The notes below the pieces were generated by a model that did not search any database, was not told the DNA's origin, and worked only from the letters and a program-made list of their open reading frames with translations. Shown piece by piece: positions 489-25,787 of a DNA stretch of 64,000 bases. Location of the stretch: NCBI GenBank assembly GCA_025201345.1, contig JAIXMG010000026.1, positions 1-64,000 on the forward strand. Direction: 5' to 3'. Numbering within the stretch: the first letter of the stretch is position 1; each line of letters starts with the position of its first letter. Origin of the DNA: Thamnidium elegans (taxonomy: Eukaryota > Mucoromycota > Mucoromycetes > Mucorales > Mucoraceae). The position numbers and the translations under genes were made by a program.

Positions 489-907
489 GGCTAATATATG
501 AGATAGGTCCCAGGAGCCTAGAGGTCGTAATAATAAACCTAACGGAGTATAAATAATAGATTTATAGGTCAAAAAATTTATGCGGATGCAATGATAGTAT
601 TTATATCTTGCTATCTTTAAAACTCCGCCCGTGACGGCGGAATTCTGTGTAGTTGGTATACATATAGCATCATAACTCATCTATTATAATTTCAATTTGG
701 ATGGGACTAGCACCATTCGAAAGAAAAAATGTTTTTATATTTATAACTAATCTTAAAATTTTAAGCTTATTAAATCAATGTGTAGTAAAATAAATTTGAA
801 AACTGTCACACTAGTAAAACCCAATGCGAAAGACGTATGCGAGGTTATAAGCTTTCGGTAACGAGTCATCAGCTGCAATTAATTTATTAGGTAAGAAGAC
901 GGATCTT

Positions 908-2190
908 AGCTAATATATGGCCACCGCTGGATCTCGAATAATTGAGAGGGTTAAAAAATTACTATAAAAGGCGATTTTTCTTGTGTAACATAGTTTGTGT
1001 AACCTTCGTGTAACATACTGCCAAAATCATTTTTGAGAGTTTTTGGTTGATTTCAATTTTTTCGTTTATAGTCACATGACATACTTGAAATAAGCCCAGA
1101 AATCGTCTATATGGATATCTTGCCAAAATAAGTGAGTTTTGATACGATTTCGTCAAATAAATCGTAAACCGTGGGAGATCGATCGAATACTTGTATAAGC
1201 CGTCTTTTTATATGGGAATGAGAAATATTTATGTTACAAATGTTTTTTTGATTTCAATGTATATTAAAATAATTATAAAAACAAGCTTCGCTACTTTTAT
1301 TTATTTTAATTACATATCATCAAAAACCATAAATACACAAATAAAAAATAAAGTAAAAATTACATTTTATTTTCAATTTTATCTATATATTTATTTATAT
1401 TCGAAATATAAATGTTTCTCAATAGGGGTTCTTGACTAGAAATAATTATTGCTGTTAATTAGTGAGAAATGTTTCTGTTTATATTTTATATAATATATAA
1501 TTTTAATTACTTGTTATTAAATTTAATTCTTATATTCAATTGTTTTGTTACATTTAAATAATATAATATAATTAATATTCTTGAACAAAGTCGTAAGTTT
1601 GAACTTACTACGTGCTTTTTATTTAATTTTGAAAGAAAAAAATTATCGCAAATTGGGGTTTCGTTCCGTTGCGAAATTGAAATAGAAAATGAAAAGAATG
1701 ATACTATAATATTAGATCGTTTCTCAAAAGTTATATCAAAAAATAAAATAAAAGTAAAATTACTAGATAATTATCAGACTAAGAATAGATTGTTACTTTT
1801 ATTAATGAAAAAGTGTGTGTCTTATATACATATTATGGGTTGAATAAGCGCTTATCATAATGTGAAACTTAGACAGTTTCAACAAGACATTAATGAATGA
1901 GCAATTTGGAATAATAAATATACTTTTCAGAAAGTCAATTACAATAACAGTGATGCGTATTATGTTTCTAATTGACTTCTTAACAAACGACGTACGATAG
2001 AGGCTTGTTGATTATAAATAGTAAGACTATAAACGAAAAAATTGAAATCAACCAAAAACTCTCAAAAATGATTTTGGCGGTATGTTACACGAAGGTTACA
2101 CAAACTATGTTACACAAGAAAAATCGCCTTTTATAGTAATTTTTTAACCCTCTCAATTATTCCAGATCCAGCGGTGGCCATATATTAGCT
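908..2190. mobile_element. Foldback / MITE-like element with 166-bp inverted repeats
   Basis: Positions 908-1073 and 2025-2190 are near-perfect inverted copies of each other. The outer end starts AGCTAATATATGGCCACC and the inner end is CGTTTATAG. The interior has no credible gene. It is a mosaic: 1240-1420 matches the reverse complement of about 24175-24380, and about 1715-2020 matches the reverse complement of about 37005-37305. The outer end resembles the GGCTAATAT sequence next to the left tips of the Merlin-like elements, so it may be a non-autonomous relative. That link is inference. No clear target duplication was found. Confidence 0.8.
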
Positions 2191-2330
2191 TTTAACCAAG
2201 AAGACTATAGCTAAATTGGTTTAAAGTGATTCTATTTAAAGTATAAAAGAAGTAGGAAAATTGGGAAATGATGTTTTTAGGTAGTTATTACAGTATATAT
2301 AAAAAAAAAAGTAATTACATAGTTGTTTTA

Positions 2331-3936
2331 CTATTGTAAGTTACGGTTATTTGGTCTACGACGATGAGGTATTTCAACATAAGTAACATCATTAGTTTCG
2401 TCGTCTTCATCTTCTTCATTAATATCAAAGTTACGACGACGATCATTCCACACTTGAAAACTTCTCAATTCTCTTTGCTCACGTAATAGCTGTTCATCTG
2501 GTGTTTCATCTGTTTCTGCTTCTGTAAACATATACGGATCCAATTGGTCACTATTATTATTATCTGATGAGAATGATACCTCCTTCATCATACGAAACAT
2601 TCCTCCTATCAAATCATTTCTGTTTTCTACTGTCCATAAATGCTCCAATAATTTTCCTGGGGCATCTTTTTTATTACGATGACGAGGTGCAATGTTCGAT
2701 TTCAAGTCTCTCCAAATACTTTCAATAACATTCGTATGTAGTCTTCCTGATGCTGGAACTTGGGTAATTCTACTACTAGTTGTATTTTGATCCAAAGTAG
2801 CAAATCCTTCCGAATGATTAACAACTTGATGACCACGAAAAAATAACTCATTACTGTCAATGCTTTCTTGTTCGAAATTAAATCCATTTAAAGACATTCT
2901 AGAAACAACCCTGTTTTGAATATCAAGACTATGAAGACCATTGTAAGCTCTCCATCCATCTGATCTAATAATTGATCCAGGTTTACAATACTTATAGATA
3001 AGTGGCAAAAGGGTAACAGCAGTACGGTCGGGAACAGTAATAAATATTCTTCTACCAGCCTTGTAACGGTACCTTTGTTCATTAATACCAAGAGTGTTGT
3101 CAACATAGGTATATGTTTGAGGTTGACCTACGGGGTAGTTCAAACACTCTATCATACCAAAAATCCAGACACCTACGAATTAAAACACGTGTTAATTTAT
3201 TTTTATTTTTATTTTACATGTTAAAATGTTACCTTCTACGCGACTTCCAGTTTCATTTTTTCTTTTACCAAGTTTAGATTCATCTATCTGAATATGATGA
3301 CAGTCAGGGGTACTACCAAGAAGATTATCACTGGTTAAAACATATTTGTTATAGTCTGAAAGCATGAGAACTTGAATATCCTTAAATATTTGACCTAGTG
3401 TAGTTGCAGCTAATGTTCTAGTATTGAATATTTTTTGCATATTTTCACCACGAATATAATCCATTGCTGCACCAAGAATTTTATGCGAGTCTGCCTTTCT
3501 TCTATACCAGAATGAATTTTTTGTAATAGTTGTTCTAATAGCATTAATGTGACCTCTACATTCATAGTAATACTGATTACGAGTTACGCGATAATATCTC
3601 TGCAATTGCAATACACAACCACCACTTCCACATGTCATATCTTCTCTATCAAACACACCCTTAGTCTCGATAAGATATCTATGCGGTTGTAATATAAAAA
3701 AAATTCAGTATAATATTAAGCTATATTTTAAATAATACTAACTCCCAGGTGCTCTCTTCCGAAGATAAAAAATTGGCTTCAATATTTTTGTCACCAGAAA
3801 TAGGTACACGTGATCCCCATTGACGTCTAGTTAAGGTTGTTGGTGCTTGAGGTATAGGTAAAATACCAGCAATGCTTGCTGCGCGATTACGATTATTGCG
3901 AGTGCTACGACGAATGTTCGAATTAGAAGTTGACAT
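2331..3936 (-). CDS. Merlin/ISXO2-like transposase (element 1), intact
   Basis: Three exons, read on the minus strand as 3936-3743, 3678-3233 and 3172-2331, join in frame to about 493 residues. The introns are 64 and 60 nt with GT-AG ends. The protein starts with an Arg/Ser-rich region, followed by a Cys-containing segment (MTCGSGGC). Next comes the IS1595/ISXO2 catalytic core: HHIQIDESKLGKRK (first Asp), SDGWRAY (second Asp), VNHS, and HTNVIESIWRDLK (Glu). An acidic C-terminal tail ends in a basic RRRPNNR segment. This family performs DDE-type cut-and-paste transposition. No stop or frameshift is present once the introns are removed, so the gene could still be active. Family assignment is strong; the N-terminal function is unknown. 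Confidence 0.85.
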
Positions 3937-5102
3937 TACTGAATTAACAAGTTAAATGTCGGTCAAGATTAATTAAAGATGTGTAATTGTAAATGGAATG
4001 TCGAAATGAATTGTCGAGTAGATTTAAAAAAATAAAAATAACAGAGTTTTAGTTCAAAGTATAAATGAATGTGAAAAAGTATGAATAAAAGTTAGACTTA
4101 CCAGAAAGAAAACAATTTATTTATAATTAAGATTGAAGAAAAACTTTTCTTCTTTATTTTATTAAAGTAAAACGAGTCACATCGAAGTTTAAGCCAGGTA
4201 GACTATTAATTACAGTCAGTTTTGTCACTATTCTAATCAAAAATTCCAGTTTTACAGGGTTTTTTTTCGCTTAAAGTACTACAAAAGATATATTTATTGC
4301 CTTTATAGGACTTTAGCTAAAGCAGCTGTATAAAATAACCATATTTGAGCCAATAGGAGTCAAAACTCATGCAAAAAGCAAGAGTTTACATCAAAAAAGC
4401 TTTTTTTTTATTTTGCGATATAGACGATAAGAAGCATTTCTGTTATATTTTCTAAATTGATATGCTTCTTATGTACGTTTTGATTATACTTTTACTAAAT
4501 TTGGGTAAATATTGATTGATTTATTAGCTGTTCCATTTTCGCAAAATCTCACCCCTTTTTTTAAAAATATCAATTTCTTCGTCAATATTTTAGTTAGGAT
4601 TAAACTTTAAATATTTTTATGCTTCTTTTCTATACTTCTTTTGGAAAAATTTTAATAGAACTTCAAAGACTGAAAACTGAGTAAGTTAACTAACCCAAAA
4701 AAACGGCCAAAATCACGTGATTTTGCTATTACTCGCCAATAATGCCGCTAATCAGACTCTAAGTAAGATTATTCAAAAGAGATTAAATTCGAACATCCTG
4801 TTAGCTATTTTTATAATGCGTATATACATTTTTTAAAAAACATTAATTATTTTGACATAGTTTTGTATAATATTTACAATATTGATAAAATACGATTTAC
4901 TATTTTAGTATATTAAGTACTTTTTTTTGTACTAAGTAAGTTTTCTTAAGAGTACTATATAATATAGTAGAGATAATATTAAACGTTTCCATCAAAAAAT
5001 AAAGAGGATAGATTAATTATTACAGGAGTAATTAAAGTTTTAGTTCAGAAAAAAAATTGAATTTAGAGAAAAAAAACGCAAATAAAAATATTTAGCAAAA
5101 TG
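3937..5102. other. Non-coding 5' region of element 1
   Basis: This AT-rich stretch upstream of the minus-strand transposase has no ORF with recognisable similarity. It presumably holds the transposase promoter. I see no other feature before the tRNA-like sequence that follows. Confidence 0.5.
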
Positions 5103-5175
5103 CTTTTACGCGGATTCGAACGAGCAATATCGGGTTGATGAATCCAACGAATATACCACTGAACTATATGAGAGT
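5103..5175 (-). other. tRNA-like sequence in element 1
   Basis: On the minus strand the sequence has an A-box-like TAGTTCAGTGG followed by a B-box GTTCGAATCC at tRNA spacing. A four-pair stem could form in the anticodon region around a GATTCAT loop. The acceptor, D and T stems pair poorly, so this is not a convincing functional tRNA. It sits about 500 bp inside the right tip. Elements 2 and 3 have comparable sequences at the same relative position. It could be a pol III promoter module or a captured tRNA relic. Confidence 0.5.
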
Positions 5176-5654
5176 TGTTAGAATTTAGCACTTTATGTAT
5201 TTAATGGCACATTTATGTTTTCAGTTTTTGAACAATATATGTACGGGGCGTAGCTAAGCTGGGATACGTCAAATTGAAAAGCAGAATAAAGCTTATTCTT
5301 TAGGGTATCATATAATTTATTCTTATAGTTTTCCCTTAAAAGTCGGAGATACAGTAATTTTTATTTTAGTCGTTAATTAAAGCTCCGAGACAAACAAAAA
5401 TTTGTTTACAAATTTATAAATTTAGCGTTCACTCGGTTGCAAAATTTAGAGTTCTTAGATGCATTTTTCACGGAGTTATGAGGATTATAGCTTATTTTTA
5501 ACCTATTCCACTTAATAAAAATCTCTGGGAATGAATTTTAAAAAATTTTAAATAATACCACCAAGTTCGTAATTTTTTTCTGCACATTTTCAGTATTTTA
5601 ATTTATCTCTAACTTCTCCTGGTCGCCCACAATCCTTACGGGACCTATCTCATA

Positions 5655-6069
5655 CAAGACCCCTGTCAACTCAGAGGAGTACGTTAAAATTTTAGGTACA
5701 TCTTTAATAGACACGCTTGATCACTTTGACCTGGCTCCGATTACCATATGTTTCCAACAAGACAAAGCAATTCCTCACACTTCTGTAACTGCTAAACAGT
5801 GGTTTATTGACAACAGATTCTCTGTAGATACTGTGCTAGATTGGCCTGCGCAAAATCCGGATTTAAATCCTATAGAGCATGTGTGATATCGACTAAAGCG
5901 GAGGTCAGACTATTACGCAACAAGACCTGCGACAAAAGAAGAACTATCAGACCGAATTGAGAAGTAATGGTATGGCTTTACTCAAAAGGGCTGTATTAAA
6001 TATATGGACACTATGCCAGCTCGAATTGAAGCAGTGGTCAAGGCCAAAGGAGGAGCAACTCGCTATTGA
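5655..6069 (+). pseudogene. Tc1/mariner transposase relic, C-terminal part
   Basis: The plus-strand reading frame shows the C-terminal half of a Tc1-type DDE transposase: FQQDKAIPHTS, WPAQNPDLNPIEHV, and a KAKGGATRY ending just before TGA at 6067-6069. The spacing from Asp to Glu is 37 residues. It is inactive: the N-terminal half is missing, the invariant Trp after EHV is TGA (a TGG to TGA change), and another in-frame stop (TAA) follows EK at about 5965. Element 1 abuts its left end. No terminal repeat was recognised for this copy. Confidence 0.75.
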
Positions 6070-6265
6070 GATATTTTCCTATTTTAATAAAATCCAATAT
6101 TTTACTTTATTCATTAAAATTTTGTACTATACTAAATATTCTTTTACAAATACTATGTCACTTGAAAGCCTCTTTAATTCTGAAGATTTGATACTAATTA
6201 CAAAACTTGGAAGTAAGCAAAAAAAAAATGGGAGGAAAAGCAAGTAATTTCTCAATTGGATGGTA

Positions 6266-7894
6266 CAGTATGCGGCAAAAGTGTCCGCATGTTATTTACC
6301 TCTTTGGTTTTTATGTAATATCTGATGGTATTCGTATCCAAATAAAATGAGTAATATACCAATTGAAAGCCCTTCAAAAAGTAAAAAGCACAATCTAAAT
6401 TTAACAGCTGTAAATAATAAAAACTCCGATCAAAATAAATTTTAAATTAAGAGGTGCATGCGGACACTTTTGCCTCTTTCAAGATTTTTATTTGTATGAT
6501 TTATAAGAAAGCAACTAATGCTTTGTCCAATATCCTTTTTCTTTAATAACTTCACTACACCTCTTATGCATGCTAAGCATATAAGGTCTTACTTCTTCCG
6601 GGGTAATACTATACCAAATATCTACTATTCTTTTTCTGAGTTCTTTCATTGATGATGGTGGTGTAGTATAGTTGGAATACAATCGATTTTTCAATAAAGC
6701 CCAAATGTTTTCAATTGGATTCAAATCAGGTGACTGTGTTGGCCAGTTTACAGTCTCAATTTTTTGATTTCTGAGCCAATCAGTAACTATATTGGCGGTA
6801 TGTTTTCTATCATTGTCATGCATAAAAAGAATATCTTTCTTCTTGAGATTGTAATAGTCGATTGTTTCAATCAAGTCTTCTTCAAGAATATTTTTATAAA
6901 GATGCTTGTCCATTGTTGTGTCAATAAAGACGAGGTATCCAACTCCTTCCCAAGTAATACAGCTCCAAATCATAACACTACCACCTCCGTGTTTTACCGT
7001 TTGATTTACTTGCTCTGGTCTAACACCTTCATCATATCTTTTGTAGCACCAATTTACACCATCTGAGCCAAAACGATTAATTTTAGTCTCGTCAGACCAA
7101 ATAACGTTTTTCCAGTCAATATCTGTCCAGTCAACGTGACTTTTACCAAACTCTAATCGCAATTTTCGATTGACAGGAGAAATTTTAGGTCTGCTGGGTT
7201 TCTTAAAAGGAACAATGCCTCGCGACAAAAGGTAGCGACGGATAGAACGAGTACTTAATGAGATTTCTAGATCCTTCAATAGTAATCTTGACAAAACAGT
7301 AGCTGATTGGACCTTCCCCTTGGTCACCTGATAAACCATAAAGTCAATTGTAGATTTCATAACTTTCTTATTTCGGCCTTTTAATTGGATATTTCGATCC
7401 GATAATTTTTCCTTTCCTATTTTAGCAACCGTTGACTTGCTTACATTCGTTCTACTTGATGTTTCACGGACACTCATTCCATTTGTCAAGCATTGTACGA
7501 CATTATCGATTTTGGAAGTTGAAGTTTTGCGCATCTTGATGGTTCGAGTTTTTTCTACACTTACTAGTTTTTCAAATTATTAGAGATATAGTGGCCGCAA
7601 AAAATTATAATTATATATATCAAATTTAGTAACAAGTGCAGTTGTGGTATAAAAAAATATAAAAAATAAAAAAATAAAAAAAGCGGCAAAAGTGTCCGCA
7701 TATGCTCTCTACTTTTGTCGAAGTGTTTAATAGCACTATCATTATTTTAATCTAAAAAAAGCTGCTGTATATTAAGTAGATTTTAAAGGGCTTTTAAATG
7801 GTACTAGACTTGTAAACTTTAATAAAGTTTTCCGCTAGTCATAGCGCCAATAATGGAAAAAATAAAAACATGCGGACACTTTTGCCGCATACTG
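6266..7894 (-). mobile_element. Complete Tc1/mariner element with TA target duplication
   Basis: Both ends read CAGTATGCGGCAAAAGTGTC inward and are flanked by TA (6264-6265 and 7895-7896), as expected for Tc1/mariner. A second, inward-facing copy of the tip motif lies at each end, near 6458-6476 on the left and 7680-7700 on the right. This gives the doubled terminal-repeat layout typical of many Tc1 elements. The element carries an intact transposase. Its right flank is inside an older Tc1 transposase gene, which it disrupts. Confidence 0.88.
6515..7534 (-). CDS. Tc1-like DDE transposase, intact (DD34E)
   Basis: A single 339-residue ORF spans the element. The N-terminal third has two helix-turn-helix regions (VQCLTNGMSVRETSSRTNVS and the following segment) that would bind the terminal repeats. 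The catalytic domain shows IWSDETK (first Asp), a glycine-rich VKHGGGSVMIWSC strand, MHDNDRKH (second Asp) and SPDLNPIENIW (Glu), with 34 residues between second Asp and Glu. It ends in KEKGYWTKH, usual for the family. There are no stops or frameshifts, and the length matches active Tc1 transposases. With the matched ends and TA duplication, this is the best candidate for an autonomous element in the window. Confidence 0.92.
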   Translation of the reverse strand: MRKTSTSKIDNVVQCLTNGMSVRETSSRTNVSKSTVAKIGKEKLSDRNIQLKGRNKKVMKSTIDFMVYQVTKGKVQSATVLSRLLLKDLEISLSTRSIRRYLLSRGIVPFKKPSRPKISPVNRKLRLEFGKSHVDWTDIDWKNVIWSDETKINRFGSDGVNWCYKRYDEGVRPEQVNQTVKHGGGSVMIWSCITWEGVGYLVFIDTTMDKHLYKNILEEDLIETIDYYNLKKKDILFMHDNDRKHTANIVTDWLRNQKIETVNWPTQSPDLNPIENIWALLKNRLYSNYTTPPSSMKELRKRIVDIWYSITPEEVRPYMLSMHKRCSEVIKEKGYWTKH

Positions 7895-7896
7895 TA

Positions 7897-8750
7897 CCAT
7901 TTTTCCCTTCACAGTATATTCCGCTCCATCTGATCCCCAGAGGTTTAACTTTGTTTCGTCTGAGTATACGACCTTCTTCCAATCTTCCACTGACCAATCA
8001 CGATGTTTTTTCGCCCACTTATAACGTTTCTTCATATGCGTAATATCAATGGCGGCTGTTGAATACTTAAATCTACACCTAAAGCCTAACTCTCTAATGA
8101 CCTTTCGGGTGGCATTATAGCTAATTGAGTAACTAACACTACACAAGTATTTATGGACATCACCAGCAGACTGTAAGGAACCGTATCAATGTTTTAGTAA
8201 ACGGCTTCACAATGCTGGGTCTTCCTGTATGTTGTCGAATATAATTTGGAATAATGCCTGATCTCAATCTGTTTACATGAGACTTCGAAACTGCAGTACG
8301 TTTCACAATGTTTATAGTAGGTTCACCTTTCAAAATCAGAGACTTGACATCATCACGTTTACTTTGGCTGAGTTTATAAGGCATAGTTATTTTTAAAAGT
8401 GTTAAAATTTGGAAAGAAATAGTGAGTAGAAAATATTCGAAAAGTTCGAAGGTATTTATAGCATAAAATAGAGAAAGGTTTAAATATTAATATACTATAA
8501 ATATATTTTAGATACATCTACGTGCCGGTCGTAAATGATTTATTACTTAAATTATGCGGAAAATTAAAAAAATTCCGAATCACTTCATTTTCCTTACATC
8601 ATGATTACGTCATAGAGAATAATTAAAATTTTATTCATAATAAAATTTAGGCTCTTCTGATTTCTTTGATATTTAGCTTGAATAGCTAGTACCATTATTT
8701 GATGAGATAATTAGAAAACAAGTTTTGTGGGTCAATTTATGTACCCACTG
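7897..8750 (-). pseudogene. Tc1/mariner element broken by the 6266-7894 insertion
   Basis: The minus strand encodes the N-terminal half of another Tc1 transposase starting at 8384 (MPYKLSQSKRDDVKSLIL). A frameshift near 8160 moves to a second frame that runs through SDETKLNLWGSDGAEYTVKG. There it is cut by the TA-flanked Tc1 insertion. The right end of the element is probably at 8750, where CCCACTG meets TA. The C-terminal half is not found in matching orientation across the insertion, so it was lost. Positions 8385-8750 are its non-coding 5' region. Confidence 0.7.
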
Positions 8751-9739
8751 TAGTTCTCAAACATATTCTACTAAATTTTTAAACAGTTTGAATGATGGCA
8801 TCATTTAATATAACTTTTTATTTCGCTGAATATAACGTGAACAGTTTTTTCCGTGTGGTTAAAAATAACTAATACTTTGTTTGTCCACCCTTGGCTTCAA
8901 TCACCGCTTTTATACGTTTAGGCATACTATCAATATACTTTTGGCAATCTGTTTCTGTAAAAGTATTCCACTCTTTATCACACCTTTCCCACAAGTCATG
9001 GATACCTTTAGCTCTTGTTTCATAAGAGCTGAGTTTCAGCTTAAGATGATGCCAAATATGCTCAATCGGGTTTAAGTCCGGGCTTTGAGCGGGCCAGTCT
9101 TCCAGAAGATGAACACCTTTGTCATTTAACCACTTCATTGTTGATTTTGATTTGTGCTTTGGATCGTTATCTTGCTGAAAGTAGACATTGTTATACTGCA
9201 AATTATAGTAATCCATGGTATCGTTAAGGGAAGTGTCTATTATATGTTGATAGTCTTCTGATTTCATTGTCCCATCAAATATCTGACAAGCGTAACCTGG
9301 CCCTTCGTAAGTGATACAGCCCCACATCATTAAACTTCCACCACCATGCTTAACGGTAACATCAATATGATGTGGTTTTAGTTCATCGCCTGGTCTTTTC
9401 CAATAGTACTTGCACCCATCAGAACCCCAAACATTAATTTTTGTTTCGTCAGAGAATACCATTCGTCTCCAATCGTCGGATGTCCAATTTCTATGAGCTT
9501 TGGCCCAACGTAGCCTGTTTTTTCTATGCTCGGCTTTAAGGAAAGGATTTTTCTTTTTTATATACGCTTGGAACCCCATAGATTTTAGCATCTTAAGGCA
9601 TGTACTATACTCCATTTTAATATCAATAGATTCCAGGTACCTCTGAACGTCTTTTCCAGTCTTTAGTTTACCCAAAATTAAGCTCTTCCGAATGTAGTTT
9701 TGCGTAGTAATGCCTAAAAGAGCGGGTCTCCCAGGGTTG

Positions 9740-11035
9740 CACTATGGCCAGATATTTAGTAAATGATACTGTTATTAGTGGACATAGTTACTAAATACGG
9801 AATATATTCCGCTATTTTCAGTAGAAAATACTCTTCCCCTTTTTTTTTATTCTAAATTTAGATTTTTTCTTTACCCGGGAATTAAAATATTAAAAAGGTG
9901 CATATCAATGTTCTATAACATATAGGTATATTACAGCGTCATAGTCGTTTAGATCTTAGCACTTACATGTATAGAGGAATAAGTTAATTATCAAAGTACA
10001 AATAATATAGACAAATATATAAATTTATTTAAAGAAAAAAAAAAGAAAAAAAGACACTGCCACGTTATCCAAAAAAAAAAAAAAAAAAAAATTGATTTAC
10101 TACATATATTTGTGCTTTCTTTTTTTCAGTATACTTAGGACTTACTATATAAATTTCAGAATCACGTATAAAAAAAGAGGTCGTTTAGCCAAGCAGAAGG
10201 TGACTTTTTTTTTCAACCACAGACGTAAGCGACCTTGCCTTCCCCCCCCCTTTTTTTTTTCTTTTCCTTTTTTATATATACTTTTACTTCACTTTATACA
10301 CAAAAGACTAATCTCAATGGTAACAATAAATTGAATCTCTTGAAATGGAACATAACTGTTTTTCTTCTTCTCTAGTTCATTCGCCTCTATTGTATCCCTA
10401 AACGCTAAGTAAAGTTTTTTTTTTTATTTTGTTCCACTGCTAAAACAATTTTTTTTTTGTTCGTTTGCTTTTAGATATTTAACCATTGAATACTATTATG
10501 GTTCACCTTAAGGTACACATCTTTTAGTTATTTTTATTTACCACCTATTAATATCTACAAACGTTTATATATTTACAGAGAAGAAACCGTTTAACCATAT
10601 GTCTTGGCTTTTTATTTACTTGTAAGTTTGATAATAACACTATTTATGTAAAACAGATTTTAACCATATATATTATGTAGAAGTAAGTTGTTATAAATGG
10701 CTACTGAATAAAGAACAACGGCTACTAAATAAAAAATAATGGCTACTAAATAAAGAGCAATGGTTACTGAATAAAGAGCAATGGTTACTGAATAAACAGA
10801 CTCATGACGTATTTTTTAGTGGAATTTCTACTAAATAGGGTATATAAGATACCATTTCAATTTCAGTATCCAACTTACTGCGTTCAGTGGAAAATATACT
10901 GCATAATAAATCCAGTATACATGGATACTAAATTCAGTAACCATACTATCTCATAGTTTCCGAATTTACAGTGTGCATATTTAGAAACACTTCTACTGTT
11001 ATTAGTATAAAAAACAACTTTATCTGGCCACAGTG
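9740..11035. mobile_element. CACTA-like non-autonomous element with 3-bp TSD
   Basis: The ends are CACTATGGCCAGATA on the left and the inverted complement of CACTGTGGCCAGATA on the right, flanked by TTG at 9737-9739 and 11036-11038. Ends of CACTR type with a 3-bp duplication are characteristic of CACTA (EnSpm) transposons. The 1296-bp element has no transposase. Near both ends there are many short copies of a TTACTAAAT / TTACTGAAT motif, like the subterminal repeats of CACTA elements. Insertion removed the reading frame of a Tc1 transposase. Confidence 0.82.
10697..10799. repeat. About five copies of a 21-22 bp tandem repeat
   Basis: The unit is close to ATGGCTACTAAATAAAGAGCA, with ACTAAAT/ACTGAAT and GGC/GGT variants. 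It lies inside the CACTA-like element and uses the same core motif as the subterminal repeats, so it may be a cluster of transposase-binding sites. Confidence 0.75.
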
Positions 11036-11639
11036 TTGTTGATCGGTGAATTAGGATACCACTTCCGCTTGTAGTCACTAATTGTACTTTTTTTAATTCC
11101 AGGAATTCGTTTCATGATCTGAGAGTAGGAATAACCAGATTGAAGCAAATTTTGTAACCTATTTTGAGTATCTTTGGGAAGAGATCGAACCATAATTTAA
11201 AAAAAAAAAGAAAGAATAAAAGAATGAAAAGCGATTTTGAAAAAGTCTTCCTTTTATATGTATATGCAATACATACCTCGGAAAGATACCTACATACCGT
11301 AGCAAATACATATTAATTGTTAATACTTTCATTCTCCCAATATTTCGGAACTTTTCATATTTTAAATTCGACCCTGAAAAATGGTCCGGATGTATATGTC
11401 ATTTTTAAATAAAATTATTTTAACCACATATAATGTTTTTATCCCAACTTTTTACCTATTTGAAAGTAAACGATTTCCCTCTTGTATTGTATTTTATTTC
11501 AAATTAATCCTATTCTTGGTTGTAGAGTTACAAGTACGAAGGTGAAAAAATATAAAACATCTGGACCATTTTTCCACCCACTGTAGGCTATAAGCTACTC
11601 ATAAAAAAAAAGTATAAAGGATAAAAAAGTTACACTTGT

Positions 11640-11767
11640 AAAAAAAAAAATCAGCTAGTAAAAAAAAAGAAAAATCAGCTAGTAAAAAAAAAGAAAAATC
11701 AGTCAGTAAAAAAAAAAAAAAATCAGCCAATAAAAAAAAAAAAAATCAGCCAATAAAAAAAAAAAAA
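11640..11767. repeat. Degenerate about 25-bp tandem repeat, AATCAGC plus A-run
   Basis: Five copies of AATCAGCTAGT / AATCAGCCAAT alternate with runs of 9-15 A. No coding potential. It lies just outside the right end of the split Tc1 element. Confidence 0.7.
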
Positions 11768-11836
11768 TTGTATAAATTAAAAAAGATATAGTAACATTTA
11801 TTACATATATGGTGTTGGAGACCATATTTTCTTTTT

Positions 11837-12094
11837 AAAAAAAACATTTCAATTATAATAATAATAGAAAATTAAAAAGAATACAAAAAAATAAATATAC
11901 ATGTATCTAAAGCCTTCCTTAAAAGGTTTTCGAGATTCTTTTGGCTAGCTTTTGCTTATGAGATGAGTATTTCTCATTCAAAAAACTTGTTACCATTATG
12001 GTAACAAGTCATTCTTAAATATGATTGGCTATACGTAAAAAAATTGGTATAATAGTTACCATAATATTATTTTGAGTACAACGGCTCCGCCATA
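11837..12094. repeat. Dispersed repeat, copy 1 (second copy 24380-24646)
   Basis: About 260 bp match 24380-24646 in the same orientation, with few changes and a small insertion in the second copy. It includes a 23-bp palindrome, CTTGTTACCATTATGGTAACAAG centre at 11997, and ends at CTCCGCCAT. There is no ORF. It looks like a short non-autonomous element or part of one; no terminal repeats were recognised. Confidence 0.75.
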
Positions 12095-12779
12095 TTATAT
12101 TAATTAGAACTGTTTTCGATATCTTTTTCTCTTTTATTTATAATAAAAATATATTTATATAATTATTCTATTAATGTTTATATGTCCGGAAGAAAACGGC
12201 CGAGCCTAAAAAAGCAATTGATCTGTGAAAAAGAGGTCAAAAAAGTAGGACGAAACGAAAGAATCTTATAAAAGTTTTCAAAAATGTTCTTGATAACATA
12301 CAGAGAGATTTCGTTGATAAAACAACTTTTTATTAGCAGTGTATCAGACTCCACTTATGTTTGAAATTACGGCCGTTTTAAGTCGCGGAGCACGATTACC
12401 ACTTGTTAATAAATTAAAAGAGAATAACTTTCTAAAATTTTTGGCTACATCATATTTGTTTTATAAGCTAATTTTATTTTATAAAATTTATTTTTATAAA
12501 GTATTTTTTTAATTATTTATATACTGGTCCTTTTTTTGTCTTTTTAACTTTTGTAAAAATTATATTGGCTAAAAATTGCTCTAGAGAAATTTAATTTTTA
12601 CATTTATAACTCAATGAAATACGCATAGGATGAAAATACATTGGTAATACCTCTAATATTAATCGGAGTTTGAATTGTAATTACGAGTAATATCGCATAG
12701 TCTACTAATACTCTCAGAGTACATGTCCACTAGATAGAAGTCATAGCTCAATATGAATTCTATTTTTACCGGCTAATAA
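12095..12779. other. AT-rich spacer with no recognised feature
   Basis: No ORF, repeat or RNA gene could be supported between the dispersed repeat and the left tip of element 2. Confidence 0.5.
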
Positions 12780-13705
12780 TTAAGATAGGGATTAATTGTA
12801 GCCGTTTGGGATATAAAAATAGTAGGAATTTGAAATTTGGAGAGATGATACATTGTAATTTTCCGCATCTTTTAAAGTAACTTTCGTGACTGTCAAATTA
12901 TTATTGCGTGCGCTATAGGCCAAAATGTGTCAATTAAATAGGTTTAAATTCAGTGGTGGTTTCAATTTAACTCCGATCAATATGAAATTTTAATGAACGT
13001 TAGTTTAGTATTTTTAAAAACTAATCTTTAAATTTGAGCAATTTTCATAAGCTAGTTTCTGAGTAATCGTTCGTCAAAATGTCGAAATACCCCTATTTTG
13101 AGGTATAATATGACTGTGTATAATATGGCCCCTGACAAAAATTTTGGGTTCCGCAAAAATATCCTTTTATCTAAAAGTAGATGCTTTGAAACTAAAAATA
13201 ACGTAAGAACGGCCTTTTTATGTTAATTATTGGTGGAGATATGGGCCGTTAAAAACAGCACATAACTTAAAAACGGCCGAAAAACACGTGATATAGAAGT
13301 TTGACGATGTAAAAAATTCTAATATCAGAATATAAATTAATTTTTTGAAAAGCTACACATCTTTAGATTATTTTAGAGCAATTTAAAATTAGTTTAACTT
13401 AAAAACTCGTTAGTTAAATGGTAGATAAATCACCGTACCTAATATGTTAAACTAGCGTACATACAGTAAACCCCAATATGTCCTCAGCTTGGTCTGCTAT
13501 ATTGACCCTTTTTAGGTTGTACTATAGGTAGTATACGTAGCAGTACAGACCCTAATACAGCTAGCATTATACCTGAAAAAATAGGTTGCGGTATTGATCG
13601 CCGTATAAAGTTACTCGACTAACATGTAAAAATATATAAAGTTTTATTGATCCAAAAATAATATAATGTTGTTTTAGCATTGTTTTATTAGAAAAAAAAA
13701 GTAGA

Positions 13706-15426
13706 TTAAGAGCGAGTATTACGGGAAGCACTGCCTCTAGGACGGCCCCTACCTCGGGAGCCTCTGGAAGGTCTTCCACGACTAGCTACACTGGCAGGAT
13801 TAGCTGCTTGACGAGCTGGTCTTCCTACTCGACCACGACCGCGACCAGCAACAGGAACACGGCTTGAACGACGAACATTTTGGTCTTCTACCTGCTGGTT
13901 TGCATCTCCAGTGGGCTCCTCCAAATTGGTAGGTCTTGGCACCCTTCCTCTTGCTGGGATATAATCCTCATCTGCGCGAGGGTCATCATTATCACCATCA
14001 GATTCTGATAGAACTGCTTCGTCTTCATCACGTTCTCTTCTTCTAGAAACCCACTGATCGAACATACGTTCCTCTCGTCTTAACCTTCTCTCTTGAGCCT
14101 CAAGGTCTTCGCCATCTTGACCTGCTGTAAAAGGTACCGAGCCTTCGCCACCAACAGTACCGTCATGTACTACCTGCACCTCACGAATACACCTCTTCAT
14201 GCCATTGATGAAGCTACCCCTATTGGCATAGCGCCACAGATACTCTACAATCTTACCAGGACAATCCTTAGAGTTACGGTATCTTGGCCCAATAAAGACC
14301 TTCAAGTCTCTCCAAAGACACTCAATTATGTTTGTGTGTAAATGACCTGAAACAGGAGTTAAGGATACGTCCGGATTGGTAGTTACTTGATCAACTGTAG
14401 TAAATCCCTGACTGTGATTAACGACTTGATGAGCTCTAAAAAAAAGCTGGTTGTTCTCGCCATTAAAGTCCAATTGACCATTGTCTACATGAGAAGGACG
14501 ATGAAGATTACGATAAGCGCGCCAACCATCGGAACGGATAACAGTTCCGGACTTACAGAATTTGTAAATAATTGGCAAGAGGGTGGCAGCAGTACGGTTA
14601 GGTACAGTTAAAAAGATGCGGTTGCCAGCTTCAAAATGGTAGCGAGTCTCAGTAGCACCAGTGCGAAAATCCGTATACTCATACGTACGTCCGTTGGGAT
14701 CCTCCGGAATAAGAGCTTCGACCATTCCAAACACCCAGATACCTTCGACGGGACGACCACGACCATGTTTACGCTTACCAAGTTTTGACTCGTCGATCTG
14801 GATATGATGACACCTGGGGTTGTTTCCGAGAAGATGATTCTCACCAAGATTATGGCTCTCATAATCAGATAACATCAAAAGCTGGCAATCAAGCAATAGC
14901 TGAGACAACGTGTTAGGAGAGATACTATGGCCTCTAAGAACATCAGTGATACGCCCACCTTGGAAGAATTGGTACATAGCAGATATCATGTACTGCAAGA
15001 TCATTTTCTTACGATAAAACATTGAACCGTTCGTAATAGTACGGCGTAAAGGTCCGTTATGACCAACGGTTGAACCATCATCGCCGATAGAGTAACCTCC
15101 GCCACAATACAAGTACCATTGCTCTCTTTCCTCTCGCCACCATAAGGTAGGGTAGTGAATACAGCCTTGAATACCACAGCGAGCGTCAGGTTGTCTATCG
15201 AATGCCCTAAAATGGTCCTTAAGAACACTAAACACGGAAAATTTTAATGTTAGTTGTTAAAGTAGGTATAATAGTAGCTTAAAATAACTTACGTCCAGAT
15301 GTCACCTCTTTCGAGAGTAATCATTCTTGCTAATTCCAAGACATCACCATCTAAAACGCGACTACGATAAGTGGAAACTACTTGACCAGCAACACGACCA
15401 CGAGAGCGAGGAATAATTGAAGACAT
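13706..15426 (-). CDS. Merlin/ISXO2-like transposase (element 2), intact
   Basis: Two exons (15426-15293 and 15227-13706) join in frame to about 551 residues. The N-terminus has an Arg/Gly stretch (IPRSRGRVAGQVV). A CGIQGC motif lies upstream of the catalytic core: HHIQIDESKLGKRKHGRGRP, WVFGMVEA, NRTAATLLPIIYKFC, SDGWRAY, VNHSQGF, and HTNIIECLWRDLK. The C-terminal 150 residues are acidic and then strongly RGR-rich (GRGRGRVGR and RGSRGRGRPRG), like AT-hook or RGG tails that bind nucleic acid. The catalytic Asp, Asp and Glu positions are all present. The basic tail is absent from bacterial IS1595 proteins and is probably a eukaryotic addition. Confidence 0.87.
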
Positions 15427-16687
15427 TTAAAATAAGATGCTTAAGATTAACGACAAAAAACTAATGTATAGTAAATGTATAAACAAAACATAAAATTAAC
15501 AATGGGTTAATGGCATTATGTTTTTTTTTTTTTTTTGGCACTTACATGATTGATAAAAAGTTAAAGAAAGAAGAAGAAAATATCTAGGCTCCCCCTACCC
15601 TAAATAAATAAATTTAAAGTAGTCACTCTTTAATTTAAACTGCGTGGATTTGATTATGCTTGTCGCTAGCCGAAAAATCAATATTTTGAGGAGCTATAAA
15701 AAATAAAGCTCTTAAATATAGTGTTTTTAAACTTATATATAGCACTCTGTAAGCAAAAAATAAGTTTATAGACCAAAAAAAGGGGTTATTATGTGATTTT
15801 TACTGCGAAAGGAACGAAATTAAGAAATTGGGTGAACTATTTTTTGCTTTTTACAGTGAATTATATAAATAAAATAAAGAATGTATTAGTGATAAGTATA
15901 TATGAAAATTAGCTTAGTTTTTAAAACTATTTTTAAAATTCGCCTATCGTTATTGTATCATAAGTTCGGACCATATTTTATCCGTCATTTTTAATTTTTG
16001 GTAATATCAGCACCAATTTCCTTTTTCAATCGTAGTAAAACCTATATACGTAATAGAACCGTTAATTACGCATGTTTTAAAACTAAAATTGTGTAGTTCT
16101 GACTGTTTGTTCAGAATTCATAGCAGAAACAAAAATAAAAAATGCTTATTTTTTATAGCATTTAAATACCTTAATTCGCAACTGTCTCAGCTATAAATAT
16201 AACATTGTCTTAATCAGTTTGTTTTCTTTTATTTGAGCATTTAAAAAAGACTTTAGCTTAAAAATTGATTGAGTAATTTGCATTTAAAAAAATGAAGATA
16301 ATGATTAAAACCTTAATATCTCCACCAAAAATTATGATACTAACTTGAAATAAATAGAAATCGCGTTAAAATTATTAATAGCTTTATCAAAATTATTTAC
16401 AGCTATCCTTAAAAAGTTTTTAAAATTTATTCCACATTTTAAAGCAAATACAAAGTAAATTTAATATCATTTGAGTATGTCATCTTTTTTTGAAAAATAA
16501 TAACAATTTCTTTTTTTACAAGTAAATTACCTAGACTATTAATGTGAACTTATGTAGAATTTTACCAAAGAAAAGAATATCAAATCAGAATTTCAAAAAA
16601 ATAAAAATTCGCAAAGTTATGACCAGTTCAAAAAAATAAATATATCAAAAATCTTAGAAAAAAAAGCAAATTTTTTTTTTACAAAAG
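15427..16687. other. Non-coding 5' region of element 2
   Basis: AT-rich sequence upstream of the transposase with no ORF of note. A long T-run lies near 15522-15536. Nothing else can be supported. Confidence 0.5.
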
Positions 16688-16762
16688 TTGACGTACGGGG
16701 TCGAACCAGCGACACGAAGATTGCTAATTCGACGCTCTACAAACCGAGCTACACAGATAAAC
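16688..16762 (-). other. tRNA-like sequence in element 2
   Basis: This is the best preserved of the three tRNA-like modules. On the minus strand TA precedes a perfect D stem (GCTC/GAGC) around GGTTTGTA, which also forms a good A box. A GGTTCGACCCC B box follows at normal spacing. The anticodon stem has four pairs (CGAA/TTCG), and the acceptor and T stems are weak. The flanks CAAAAGTT and AACTTTTG are inverted, extending the stem. It may be a pol III promoter or tRNA-derived module rather than a tRNA used in translation. Confidence 0.55.
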
Positions 16763-17279
16763 TTTTGAAACTTATAAAATAAATTAAAAATATCCAAGCT
16801 GGTTAAAATGTTTTTTGGCAATTACGACTTCTTTTATTACATAAAATTAATTTCTTAAAATTTAATAATTTTAAATATAGCTATTTTTATCGTAATTAAC
16901 TGTCAAACCGTATTTAATAGTTTTTATGCTGTCCCAGCGCATCTTAGACTTTTAACGCTCGCGGAGACCGAAATATAGCTAGAATTAATTTGAAAACTTT
17001 GGAGAATATGTGGAAACTTTATTAATGCATTGTGTGAAAATCTGAAGCTTTTTGAATCATAGCCTAACGCGCTTTTGAATTTAACCCTATTTAATTGACA
17101 CATTTTGGCCTATAGCGCACGCAATAATAATTTGACAGTCACGAAAGTTACTTTAAAAGATGCGGAAAATTACAATGTATCATCTCTCCAAATTTCAAAT
17201 CCCTACTATTTTTATATCCCAAACGGCTACAATTAATCCCTATCTTAAATGGTACCCTTTTTACCTAATTAGCGCAATA

Positions 17280-17500
17280 CAGTGACTCACAAAACTGTCC
17301 CATGTTTGGATATTTTTTTTTAAACGATAAACCTGTATATATAACTGGCATTTAAAGTATCTTTTGTTATACTCCGTTCGATAGAGAAAACTGTCCTCTT
17401 TCCGAAAAAGGACTTATGTCGTATAAATGATGTCACGTGAGATAATTTAAACGCAGCTAAAGCTAAACTATTTATTGGGACAGTCTTGTGAGGAAGCAGC
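17280..17500. mobile_element. Isolated terminal region of a Tc1/mariner element
   Basis: It begins TA then CAGTGACTCACAAAACTGTCC at 17280, and has an inward-facing second copy (GGGACAGTCTTGTGAGG) near 17478-17494. The same tip occurs at 22160. No transposase is present, so this is a solo end left after deletion or interrupted by element 3. Confidence 0.6.
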
Positions 17501-18349
17501 AAATTTTGAATTCTCAAAAAAATAATATGGCTAATATTTAAGATAGGTCCCACGAAACCACGGCCGAACCAAAGGTAGTAGAGGTCTGAAATTTTGGGAA
17601 TAGCATTTAAAAAATTCTATCTAATTGGGAATTAAATTTCATGCCGCGGAAATCAAAATTGCGAAAGTTTAAATAGTAAAAGTTATATTCTGCATATATT
17701 ATGGTATATATCAGTCTATAACTTGCGAATCACGCATGGATAAGTTTTCATTTTTTGTGATAATAGTTAGATGTATTACCTAACGTCGCTCAGAAAATTT
17801 CAAACAGTTTAATAGCGAATTGCAATCGCAAACTCGTATAATATACGATGTAATGCTGAAGACATAGTGGTAGCGACCACTGTTAGGTTAGGCAGGGAAT
17901 ATTATTTAAAAATTTGATTGCAGAATCAAGTTTAAATTGATATTTTATATAACAGTTTATCAGATAAAATAGTAGACGGGTTAATTGAGTGTCTATAATG
18001 GATGTTAAGCTCGCATTAGAAGATAATATAAGTGAGCTATGATAAACGTATAATAGTTTATATGGATTGCAGTTCTATACTAAATAGTCCTTTACTAGAA
18101 TAAGGTTAGTAGAGATTTTGATAAGCTACATTTTACTATGCGCTATTGTTTGATTTAGGTGCGCTACTCGTGAATAACGCTAAAAAATATACCGATGATA
18201 ATACTACATATGATGAGACGCTACACTGCTAAATCTGTTACATTAAGTATTAACAGGTTTATGGTCTATATTCATTTTAAGAAGTGTTTGTATAATAATA
18301 TAAAGTAACTGTAAAAAATCATTTATTAAAAAAAAAGATGGATAATATC

Positions 18350-19941
18350 TTAACGTCTGCTTCTACTACGTCTAGTATTATGACGAGTAGGGATAGTAGT
18401 AGTAGTAAGATTTTGCTCTTCGTTAACGGGAATATCTAAAGTACTGTCACTAACAGAAGATGGTTGGAAGGATGATGCAAGTGTAAGACCTTCATCCGGA
18501 TTATTGCTTCCTTCTTCTGGTACCCAATCTTCGTCGTCAGTGTCATAATCCGTTTCCACTTCCGAATCATAGTCATCTTCATGCTGGAATGGCTGGGCTT
18601 CTTCTACCTCCACTTGTTCTTCATCCCATGCTTGGGCACGTGTTATCAAATCAGGGGAAACACCTCCAGAATTGGGTGTATTAACCAGCTGGACTTCACG
18701 AATACACCTTTCCATACCAGTTTTCAATCCAAGGCCTTGATTTTCTCTGCGCCACATAAACTCCAAGAGTTTACCAGGACAATCCTTGATGGTGCGATTA
18801 CGAGGATGAATAAAACGTTTAATTGGGGTCCACAACCCTTCGATTACATTAGTGTGGATTAACCCCTCAGTTTGGTTACCCTGAACTTGATCCTCTGTAG
18901 CAAAATTGATCGAGTGATTGACTACTTGATGTCTTCTAAAATAGAACCCGGAATAATCTGCTGGAACTACAGAGCCGTCCTCTCTTATTATGTCACTTGG
19001 ATGAGGACGAGAATAAGCAGACCACCCATCGGAACGAATCACAGTACCCCGAGCACAAAAAGCCTGAATGATTGGGATCAAAGTAGCAGCAGAACGGTTG
19101 GGTACCGTACACACAAACGCTTTACCTGCCTTGAACTTTGGTCTCTCTTCGTACTGACCTTCCGATATGTAAGCATAGTAGGTCTCATCTGTTTTGATGG
19201 CTTCCACCATACCAAACACCCAAACACCTTCAACATGAGTACCACGGTTATGCTTACGCTTACCAAACTTAGACTCATCAATTTGAATATGATCGCACAA
19301 TTCGTTTTCACCTAAAAGATAGCTACCGTGGTATCGCACATAATCAGAGCTCATCATTGCTTGACAATCTTTAGAAATCTGAGCAATCGTAACACCGTGG
19401 ACTTTGATGGTGCTGAAAATGTCGTTTGCTTTAGCTGAGCGGAAATATTCAAGTAAGATACAATATACAATGTTGACAGTCTTCTTACTGTTATAAAACA
19501 CTGTGTTAGATGTAATAGTCACTTGTCTATCGCGATGAGCATATAACGGTGTAGAAAAACGACAATGGTAGTAAAATTGCTGCTTTTGAGCTCTATATGT
19601 CAAGGCCATTTCGCTAGAACAACCATTGTAACGACAGATATTGTCCTCTCTGTAGAAAGCACCGATAGTATCTCTTAAATGACTATAGAAGTATGAATTT
19701 TTTTAGTTTTAAAACGTTTTATTAATATTTATATTGTACTTACTCCCAAGTTGCTGTAGCAGATCCAATAATTCGGGCATCTTCTATACGCTCACCAACA
19801 ACAGGAATACGAGTACCCCAACCTAACTACTTGACCAGAAAAACGACCACGAGGACGAGCATTAGCTGTAACATTATCTGCTAAGACATTTCTTGGACGA
19901 CCGCGACGATTACGGCCTGCATTGACATTGATAGGAGGCAT
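18350..19941 (-). pseudogene. Merlin/ISXO2-like transposase (element 3), one frameshift
   Basis: Two exons are visible: 19941-19744 and 19682-18350. Exon 2 encodes HIQIDESKFGKRKHNRG, WVFGMVEA, NRSAATLIPIIQAFC, SDGWSAY, VNHSINF, and HTNVIEGLWTPIKR, all needed for a DDE transposase, followed by an acidic tail. Exon 1 is 198 nt, but the splice phase requires a length of 2 modulo 3. The N-terminal RGRFSGQVVR and the next segment WGTRIPVVGERIED lie in different frames, with the shift near 19820-19830. Either the element is inactive or the sequence has an error there. The N-terminal segment resembles WGSRVPISGDKN of element 1. Confidence 0.8.
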
Positions 19942-20959
19942 TACGAACTAGATTGCAGTAAATGTTCTTTGTTGATTGAGTTTAAGTAATGTGCAGAGAA
20001 ATATAAAGCAATTTAATTAAAATGTTGTGATATTGATAGAGAAGGTCGAAATAAAATACAGAAAATGATAAAAGGCTTGGTATTAGTTTTTAAAGTATAA
20101 TAATGTAATAATTACTTACATGAATAAAAGGAGGGATTTCTTTTTTTTCCAGAAGAAAAAGTTTTCTCTCTTGCCTAAGCCACCGCCAAAATATGACGGT
20201 GTCACTGAAAACAGAAGTCCGAACAAAATCACTCATAATTTCCTTGTTTTTATAGTTAGCGACACGATTCAAGTATATATTTGGTAGGAAAACTGCTTCT
20301 CATTTCAAATTTTATATTTCCGTAAGCAAACAGATGCTATTTCACAGCTTATTGGTTGCTATATCGTTATATTCCCGTTTTAATCATGAGGTAAATAACA
20401 CCATTTGAAACATATTGGCTATTTTTGAGGCAATATAACACGTGGACCTACTATCTCAATCATGCCGAAATTTTTATAGTAGCATTACTTGCTTTTGTTT
20501 ATTTATGTATAAAAATATTGGAGTTGTACCAATCATATTTCCCTTCCATATTTGGCATTAAAATTTTGCAAAAAAGCAGTTTTATGGTAATAGTTGCATG
20601 AATAATTAACTGATATCTATGATATCTACCTCATTAAAATTGCGTAAAAACGCCACATAACATATGATAATAACAGATGCTTACTATAATATTTTTAAAA
20701 AATGCTATGATATTTTCTAAAGTTCGTTAAATTCTATTATACACATTTTTTAAAAGATGTATATCTACTTTTTTTTCAACTAATTAAAGCTATTTCAAAA
20801 AAAGATAGGTAATTAGTCAGTTTTAGCAAAGGTTAAAAATTAAAACAGATTGAAGATTGAATAAAAACTCCAGGAGAAATGAGCGTTTAAAGTGATTTAT
20901 AACGATCTAGACGCACTACATAATCGTTACTTTTTTAAAAAAAATATGAAACAAAAGTT
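19942..20959. other. Non-coding 5' region of element 3
   Basis: AT-rich sequence upstream of the transposase. No ORF with recognisable similarity and no repeat could be supported. Confidence 0.5.
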
Positions 20960-21032
20960 TCTTACGAGAACTGAATTAGCGACCATACCTACGATCAACG
21001 ATACTTATGCCACTACACCGTAGCGGCAATCA
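20960..21032 (-). other. tRNA-like relic in element 3
   Basis: The minus strand reads GGTGTAGTGGCATAAGTA, an A-box-like start, followed at tRNA spacing by AATTCAGTTCTCG, a decayed B box. The flank ACAAAAGTTTCTTACGAG aligns with the flanks of the modules in elements 1 and 2, and the distance to the right tip (about 500 bp) is the same. On its own this would not be called; the position and flank agreement support it. Confidence 0.4.
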
Positions 21033-21729
21033 TATTTTTCCTTACTTGTTTTAAAACAAGTACGTATACAATAAAATTTAAAATTGTCATTACTCCAGAA
21101 GAAAACGTCACAGTAGTTTCAAAAGTTTTTCCTAGTTAGTTCTAAAGCTTTTACTTCCGTAGATATTTACTGCTGTACGTTATAATATTTTCACGAAAAG
21201 ATATGTCAACTCTTACATATTACCGATTTAAAGAATAATTGAGCTGTAAGAATTGGAAATAAAAGCTACAATTATTTGTAATCTAATGTTTTCTATCACC
21301 TAACTTATTTTTGTAACGATAAGATTAGTACTGATGAAGTTATTTCCGTATTCGTCAGTTTTTACTATTTAAACTTCCGCAATTTTGATCTCCGGTGCAT
21401 GAAACTTAATTCCCAATTAGATAGAATTTTTTAAACGCTATTCCCAAAATTTCAGACCTCTACTACCTTTGATTCGGCCGTGGTTTCCTGGGACCTATCT
21501 TAAATGGTGGCCCAAGTTTGCCGAGTGTGAAGAACTAAAGCTTACTTTGGATTATGCTCAGCTATAGATAACTACAAACATAGAAAACATGATGAATTGC
21601 CCAGTCACAATCAATTTATGTTTATATCTTTTTTTTTGTAAACAAAAAAAAAAAAACTCTTTTTATTCATTTTTATAAATATATACAGAGAGAGAGAGGA
21701 AATACTTTAACCGAAAAAAACCTACTGCA

Positions 21730-25435: not shown

Positions 25436-25787
25436 TTTATCAAGTGTTGCAGAGTCCAGATAATATCCCTAGACCTATCATTAAAAGTCTACAAAACTAT
25501 AGTGTCGACGAACAATCCAAACTATTATCGTCAAGATCAATGGTTTATATACCCAATAATGATGAATTGAAGATCAAATTATTGAAACAACATCACGATT
25601 CGGTCTCTGCAGGTCATTTCGGTAGAGCTAAGACATACGAATTGTTATCCAAGAACTATTGGTGGTCTGGTATGAAGAATTTTGTTAATCGATACGTAGC
25701 CAATTGCCAAACCTGTAATCGCGGTAAAAGTTCACACCAACTACCACTAGGCCACTTAAGACCCCTCCAGATACCAAGTAAACCATG
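25436..25787 (+). pseudogene. Ty3 element A pol fragment, integrase zinc-binding domain
   Basis: The plus-strand frame encodes the H2C2 zinc-binding domain of a Ty3/Gypsy integrase: HHDSVSAGHFGRAKTYELLS, then YWWSGMKNFV and CQTC. It stops at LRPLQIPSKP, where an LTR-type insertion begins. The expected continuation, PWSSISMDFIVSLPDS, resumes at 35304 with a duplicated CCATG. All upstream pol domains are missing because a CACTA-like end cuts the element at 25435. Confidence 0.88.

Follow-up and report, generated by a model that had tools for sequence, protein, structure and literature searches.

Merlin (IS1595-like) transposons of eukaryotes are described in a survey as carrying a DDE_Tnp_IS1595 transposase and terminal inverted repeats, and are reported there from Mucoromycota (PMC8101967). 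The words tRNA and polymerase III do not occur in the main text of that survey. Here we analyze a 64,000-nucleotide stretch of the Mucorales fungus Thamnidium elegans (contig JAIXMG010000026.1, C19:1-64000; referred to as the window), which contains three elements of this type. They share the transposase and the inverted repeats with the published Merlin elements, but differ from them in bearing a unit that is probably derived from a transfer RNA (tRNA) gene and has the layout of an RNA polymerase III (pol III) promoter. A full-text literature search, judged by titles and the beginnings of abstracts, returned no DNA transposon with such a unit; its coverage was partial and novelty is unproven.

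Related situations are described in further papers. The long terminal repeat (LTR) elements Ty3, Tj1, Tca8 and DGLT-A insert into a narrow window upstream of tRNA genes (PMC5911963, PMC4600332). Ty3 reaches these genes via TFIIIB and Ty1 via pol III subunits (PMC5911963), and most sequenced inserts of Tj1 lie within 12 bp upstream of a tRNA gene (PMC4600332). The extrachromosomal ribosomal DNA (rDNA) element of Dictyostelium carries A and B boxes without a tRNA that are hit by a tRNA-targeting retrotransposon at a tRNA-like distance, which was taken as evidence of pol III complexes at these sites (PMC5391098). The likeness to the case presented here is close, but the Dictyostelium sites lie in an rDNA palindrome and are hit by a non-LTR element, whereas ours are found in DNA transposons of seven families and are followed by T runs. 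At a fission yeast centromere, a tRNA gene blocks heterochromatin in an orientation-independent manner that needs TFIIIC and pol III (PMC2040200).

All three elements of the window are Merlin transposons of about 4 to 5 kb. Their transposase proteins match DDE_Tnp_IS1595 (PF12762) above the curated cut-off in all three cases. Terminal inverted repeats span 173 bp in element 2 and 146 bp in element 3; the tips of element 1 share only a short match, recognized by eye (GGCTAATATATGAGATAGG / GGGTCTTGTATGAGATAGG). Merlin elements duplicate 8 bp of target sequence. Such a duplication, TTTTTACC, is perfectly preserved on either side of element 2 (12763-12770 and 17258-17265); no matching duplication was found by eye for elements 1 and 3. 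The closest named relatives of the element 2 transposase come from Thamnidium elegans itself (70-71% identity), Mucor saturninus and Rhizopus, and a search of IMG/VR returned no relative with this transposase.

An earlier note on this DNA, made from its letters, had placed a tRNA-like sequence about 500 bp inside the right tip of each element, oriented like the transposase. We find all three within a few bases of the positions it gave and in that orientation, with the A box approximately 492-507 bp from the tip and the unit approximately 1.0-1.3 kb ahead of the transposase start codon. Element 2 contains the D arm (GCTC/GAGC) and the B box (GGTTCGACCCC) described for it. Elements 1 and 2 score 25.7 and 24.9 for their A and B boxes, which is inside the range of real tRNAs; element 3 scores 6.7, taken by itself no more than chance. 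The unit of element 3 is accepted because it lies at the expected place, has the same TTTT/T8 pattern on its 3′ side and aligns with the unit of its sister family f452, the transposase of which is 75% identical to that of element 3.

All quoted scores come from an A/B-box matrix trained on 18 real tRNAs of the same genome; an initial scan with consensus weights from general knowledge served only to locate the units. Real tRNAs score 23.6-34.9 when each of the 18 is left out in turn. In control sequence (0.471 Mb strand-bases), five sites reach 20, and these are three real tRNAs and two Merlin tRNA-like sequences (L022 and L018). Representatives of six of the seven Merlin families that carry the unit score 20.9-32.2. 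Type-2 promoter boxes at tRNA spacing, with a score of at least 20, are found in 34 of the 41 copies of the unit, including the f522 copies L118 and L119, which were scanned with wider spacing on account of an 11-bp deletion between the boxes; element 3 is not among them. The distance between the boxes is 43-44, or 32 in two copies with a deletion.

The promoter boxes are preserved in units that have lost the functional tRNA cloverleaf. In agreement with the earlier note, which had called the stems poor and the sequences not ordinary tRNAs, neither ARAGORN at default settings nor Rfam (gathering threshold, and E up to 5 on positions 1-24000) finds a tRNA in the window. Relaxed ARAGORN settings gave many doubtful matches, which were left out of the counts. 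A covariance model built from the 18 real tRNAs was run on loci that include four real tRNAs. These receive 62-74 bits and the units at most 17.1 bits (f509 17.1, elt2 11.4, f522 9.3). With the filters off, f452 reaches 6.0 bits over positions 8-65; the 6.6 bits of f292 come solely from its B box, and the units of elt1 and elt3 are not matched. Of 21 stem pairs, the units retain 12-15 (best of several offsets); the 18 real tRNAs have 19-21, and random sequence gives 8.

The units are also followed by terminator-like T runs. In all eight units inspected (the seven family representatives and L022), the first TTTT lies 9-11 nt past the B box, at the would-be 3′ end of the tRNA, and a T8 run follows 22-41 nt past the B box; a T8 is present in 7.5% of 70-nt windows in the same regions. 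All 23 real tRNAs inspected show a TTTT at 0-11 nt beyond position 73. The flank CAAAAGTT of the earlier note holds such a sequence, CTTTTG, directly 3′ of the module. T runs at two near-fixed distances suggest real transcripts, and the unit might thus yield a short pol III RNA of about 75-110 nt that itself benefits the transposon, perhaps as a silencing decoy or a regulator. We consider a role of the RNA itself rather unlikely, as identity between the boxes is no more than 45-59% across three sister pairs, the stems are not kept, and copies with an 11-bp internal deletion occur at two places.

The earlier note had proposed collecting related elements from the genome. Six DNA searches of the 34.1-Mb assembly (64 contigs) returned 40 copies of the unit in six families (f509 8, elt1 7, f452 3, elt2 9, f522 9, f292 4), which together with element 3 of the window gives 41 copies in seven families. 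This is a lower bound, since elt3 was not among the families searched genome-wide. All copies were read with flanks of varying length. The presence of the unit in four further Merlin families (f509, f522, f452 and f292), detected in the DNA that precedes other Merlin transposases, extends the pattern beyond the window. In all seven representatives, the unit precedes the transposase and shares its strand. Six families share the 5′ tip motif GG(G)...AGATAGG, from which the A box is removed by about 497 (elt1), 507 (elt2), 492 (elt3), 508 (f509), 514 (f522) and 496 bp (f452), after adjustment for one or two leading bases. Transposase identity is approximately 34-50% between non-sister families and 52% between elt1 and f522. 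Several Merlin copies were uninformative, being truncated or rearranged before the site of the unit (L017, L030, L041, L042, L045 and L046) or having no recognizable Merlin 5′ region (L039, L044 and L049).

Seven families with a unit could reflect separate captures of tRNA genes, or a short interspersed element (SINE) that landed there. By eye, the units do resemble different isoacceptors (Val-like in f452, an Ala-like loop in elt2). Against this, elt1 aligns from the B box onward with both f522 and f292, and with f452 from just upstream of the unit onward. In addition, all 40 searched copies have the flank of their own family on at least one side, many of them read over only 260-330 bp. We consider either origin improbable.

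LTR-type insertions can be used as probes of pol III complexes. In L022, L029 and L037, the same LTR end (LTR-A) lies directly upstream of the unit and is 97-100% identical over 78 bp. LTR-A has 40 matches in the genome, some paired 5.4 kb apart. Of 31 examined, 13 adjoin a real tRNA and 3 a Merlin unit, one (L099) adjoins a divergent tRNA-like sequence, 4 continue into what is presumably internal sequence, and the other 10 meet other LTR starts or unclear sequence. The remaining 9 of the 40 are presumed to be 5′ LTRs. The insertions just upstream of tRNA genes resemble those of Ty3, Tj1, Tca8 and DGLT-A, with the difference that some of the ends adjoin a tRNA-like sequence borne by a transposon. 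LTR-B has 7 matches, and of the 5 examined 3 adjoin a real tRNA, one of them judged from coordinates alone, and 2 do not. Of the 9 matches specific to LTR-C, 4 adjoin a real tRNA, again with one judged from coordinates, and 5 do not; six further LTR-C matches overlap LTR-A. LTR-D and LTR-E came to notice through adjoining Merlin units.

The LTR edge is 10-15 bp from position 1 of 20 real tRNAs (13 with LTR-A, 2 with LTR-B, 3 with LTR-C, and L058 and L068, LTR-like by eye), and 10-12 bp from the Merlin unit in L022, L029, L037, L018, L132 and L136. L135 has a repeat approximately 13 bp upstream of its unit that is 97.7% identical to a repeat approximately 10 bp upstream of the tRNA-Asp in L014. 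The insertions in L018 (about 340 bp, with ATTCC on either side) and L022 (a solo LTR of about 490 bp, with AAATA on either side) both have uninterrupted sister copies. The flanks of the L037 insertion have TTGA in common, with one mismatch in five, and L029 and L037 are probably one duplicated insertion. Counted in this way, there are six independent junctions among the 41 units, involving four repeat types and both orientations. By a rough, post hoc estimate, 60-200 insertions placed at random would put six into 6-bp windows of this kind with a probability below 1e-18.

Because the LTR-type junctions lie at the distance typical of tRNA genes, the units appear to be pol III start sites in the living cell, and TFIIIB and pol III are very probably recruited to them in vivo. 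By analogy with Ty3 and TRE5-A, insertions at the start site would argue for TFIIIB at these places, and a TFIIIC-only (ETC) site is the other conceivable reading. A pol III promoter was among the retained functions that the earlier note had suggested, and this suggestion has gained support from A and B boxes of near real-tRNA quality without the fold, from the T runs and from the six insertions at tRNA distance. The module is thus probably a type-2 (A/B box) pol III promoter with a terminator, most likely stemming from a tRNA gene held by an ancestral Merlin.

Other tRNA-associated sequences were seen in the same loci. The LTR-A end in L099 (C17:407980-408130) is followed by the divergent tRNA-like sequence with no listed Merlin transposase nearby. 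In L136, the sequence directly 3′ of the unit recurs 3′ of a real tRNA (19/19 bases shared with L087). A repeat with TGTCACTATTCTTTTAGTCAAAATTGT or a close form is seen by eye downstream of the tRNAs in L029, L065, L086, L087 and L101 and of the L136 unit, which suggests another retroelement, with a preference for the region 3′ of pol III genes. Among 22 real tRNA genes (L050-L069), inspection by eye showed one or the other of two upstream features in about 20: an LTR-like end at 10-15 bp, or a paired CACGTG-type motif (for example CACGTGATATTCACGTG) at roughly 60-90 bp. This motif is also found inside the LTR-like repeats of L132 and L135; it is therefore possibly a relic of retroelements and not a part of the tRNA promoter.

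A number of observations weigh against the reading as a retained pol III promoter. The earlier note had named conservation of the boxes above the surrounding sequence as support and conservation no higher than in the flanks as a refutation. Taken to the letter, the latter outcome is the one obtained. Module and flank are 59% and 69-72% identical between elt2 and f509, 50% and 46-54% between elt3 and f452, and 47% and 44-56% between elt1 and f522. The unit of element 3 has decayed despite a long transposase open reading frame (ORF), and its score is at chance level, with 69 control sites reaching 8. The near-constant distance to the tip is broken by f292, where the tip is GGGTACCCC and the A box lies about 347 bp from it. 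The A box is weakened in eight of the nine elt2 copies, which do not differ from one another; three elt1 copies (L033, L034 and L123) have A14 changed to G and score 19.4, and two f522 copies have in common the 11-bp deletion between the boxes. The two 2-kb Merlin families, with transposases of 298 and 302 amino acids, were each represented by one scanned copy, in which the unit is absent (highest scores 0.1 and -1.9 in sense, 4.0 and 11.8 in antisense orientation). Among the junctions, LTR-D has three matches, one of them in L018, and the other two are not directly beside a real tRNA; the repeats in L135 and L132 are LTR-like by appearance only.

The variants of the elt2 A box and the f522 deletion have multiplied, and a perfect unit is therefore not essential. 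At the other end of the range, the elt2 copy L131 has a fully canonical A box and scores 36.5; the f292 copy L138 carries a further deletion. Within elt1, ten pairs of copies differ by 0-9.6% in the module and by 0.2-10.2% elsewhere. The B boxes GGTTCGACCCC and GGTTCAATTCC have different letters and both match the pol III consensus, which suggests that any constraint would act on the match to the A and B motifs and not on the letters. A test of letter identity would then mislead.

These observations bring up the alternative that the unit is a passive relic: a single captured tRNA gene that is decaying, with some copies still recruiting pol III and no benefit to the element. The decay of element 3 (6.7), the lack of identity above the flanks and the 7 of 41 copies that score below 20 are all in line with it. 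In simulations of neutral decay, however, real tRNAs retain a score of at least 20 in 13% of cases at 58% pairwise identity and in 5% at 50%, yet six of the seven families have retained it, and the T runs keep a near-fixed distance in 8 of 8 units. Given 12-15 of 21 paired positions, the neutral simulation yields such scores in 5-27%. We regard mere decay as unlikely.

The absence of the unit from the scanned 2-kb elements indicates that Merlin transposition in general does not need it. This bears on the idea that the pol III complex acts on replication or DNA breaks, making forks pause and thereby tying excision or insertion to replication, which would fit the near-constant distance between unit and tip in six of the seven families. 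Of the 2-kb Merlin with the 298-amino-acid transposase, at least eight nearly complete copies of 98% identity or higher are present, and the copy scanned lacks the unit. We consider such a coupling improbable. The transposase tree was poorly resolved, with the f298 row apparently in the wrong frame, and was not used to place the 2-kb families. One 2-kb Merlin with a 298-amino-acid transposase is located inside an elt1 copy (L018, 4260-6241), where the aligned flanks overlap by 8 bp.

Returning to a retained pol III promoter, we propose that the 4- to 5-kb Merlin families of this fungus go back to an ancestor that carried a tRNA gene. The fold of the tRNA would have decayed, with the A box, the B box, the start-site spacing and the T-run terminators being retained. 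Selection would act on the assembly of TFIIIC, TFIIIB and pol III at the spot and not on the tRNA product. The resulting complex would separate the transposase gene from the outer DNA as a nucleosome-free barrier and protect it from silencing or read-through transcription. With such a role, the motifs and their occupancy would matter and the sequence of the RNA would not. The arrangement resembles the barrier tRNA genes of fission yeast, where a pol III complex between two domains could block silencing (PMC2040200); the difference is that barrier activity in Merlin is a proposal. We put this barrier role forward with reservation, as a reasonable possibility. The entire course of events, in which a captured tRNA gene became a portable pol III insulator that shields the transposase and was kept across deeply diverged families while the tRNA was lost, is possible but on balance doubtful.

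The features of the window elements are collected in Table 1. A 1.28-kb element bounded by 166-bp inverted repeats lies nested within element 1 (908-2190), and one of its ends is also found next to an f292 unit in L137. A comparison of this element and nine other inverted-repeat stretches, as possible Merlin derivatives, with the seven Merlin 5′ regions revealed no similarity and is uninformative on the loss of units. Two ORFs between elements 1 and 2 (6515-7534 and 8869-9675) were named Tc1/mariner-like transposases by appearance, and the ORF at 25444-25824 presumably resembles the zinc-binding part of a Ty3/gypsy integrase.

Table 1 Merlin elements of the window, their transposase genes, tRNA-like units and terminator-like T runs (CM, covariance model)
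Feature	Coordinates	Strand	Basis
Merlin element 1 (family elt1)	489..5662	-	tips by eye, IS1595 domain, alignment ends of other copies
Element 1 transposase gene, several exons	2331..3936	-	ORFs 2331-3155 and 3192-3656 plus 5′ exon; intron and start by eye
Element 1 terminator-like T runs, 3′ of unit	5069..5100	-	TTTT 5097-5100, T8 5069-5076
Element 1 tRNA-like unit	5101..5173	-	A box 5155-5166, B box 5112-5122; matrix score 25.7
Merlin element 2 (family elt2)	12771..17257	-	sequence, 173-bp inverted repeats
Element 2 transposase gene	13706..15426	-	main ORF 13706-15235 plus 5′ exon; start by eye
Element 2 terminator-like T runs, 3′ of unit	16658..16686	-	TTTT 16683-16686, T8 16658-16665
Element 2 tRNA-like unit	16686..16758	-	A box 16740-16751, B box 16697-16707; score 24.9; CM 11.4 bits
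Merlin element 3 (family elt3)	17529..21513	-	sequence, 146-bp terminal inverted repeats
Element 3 transposase gene	18350..19941	-	main ORF 18350-19609 plus 5′ part; start by eye
Element 3 terminator-like T runs, 3′ of unit	20937..20956	-	TTTT 20953-20956, T8 20937-20944
Element 3 decayed tRNA-like unit	20960..21031	-	A-box remnant 21009-21020, B-box remnant 20967-20977; score 6.7

Pol III promoters are expected in SINEs and in the targets of retrotransposons; as regular constituents of DNA transposons they are not. If our interpretation is correct, the Merlin elements of this fungus would represent a natural separation of the promoter function of a tRNA gene from the function of the tRNA. They would offer a ready test of whether pol III complexes shield mobile genes from silencing. 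One mobile element would also supply landing sites for another, and the retrotransposon insertions may then be read as a record of pol III occupancy that is obtained without chromatin data.

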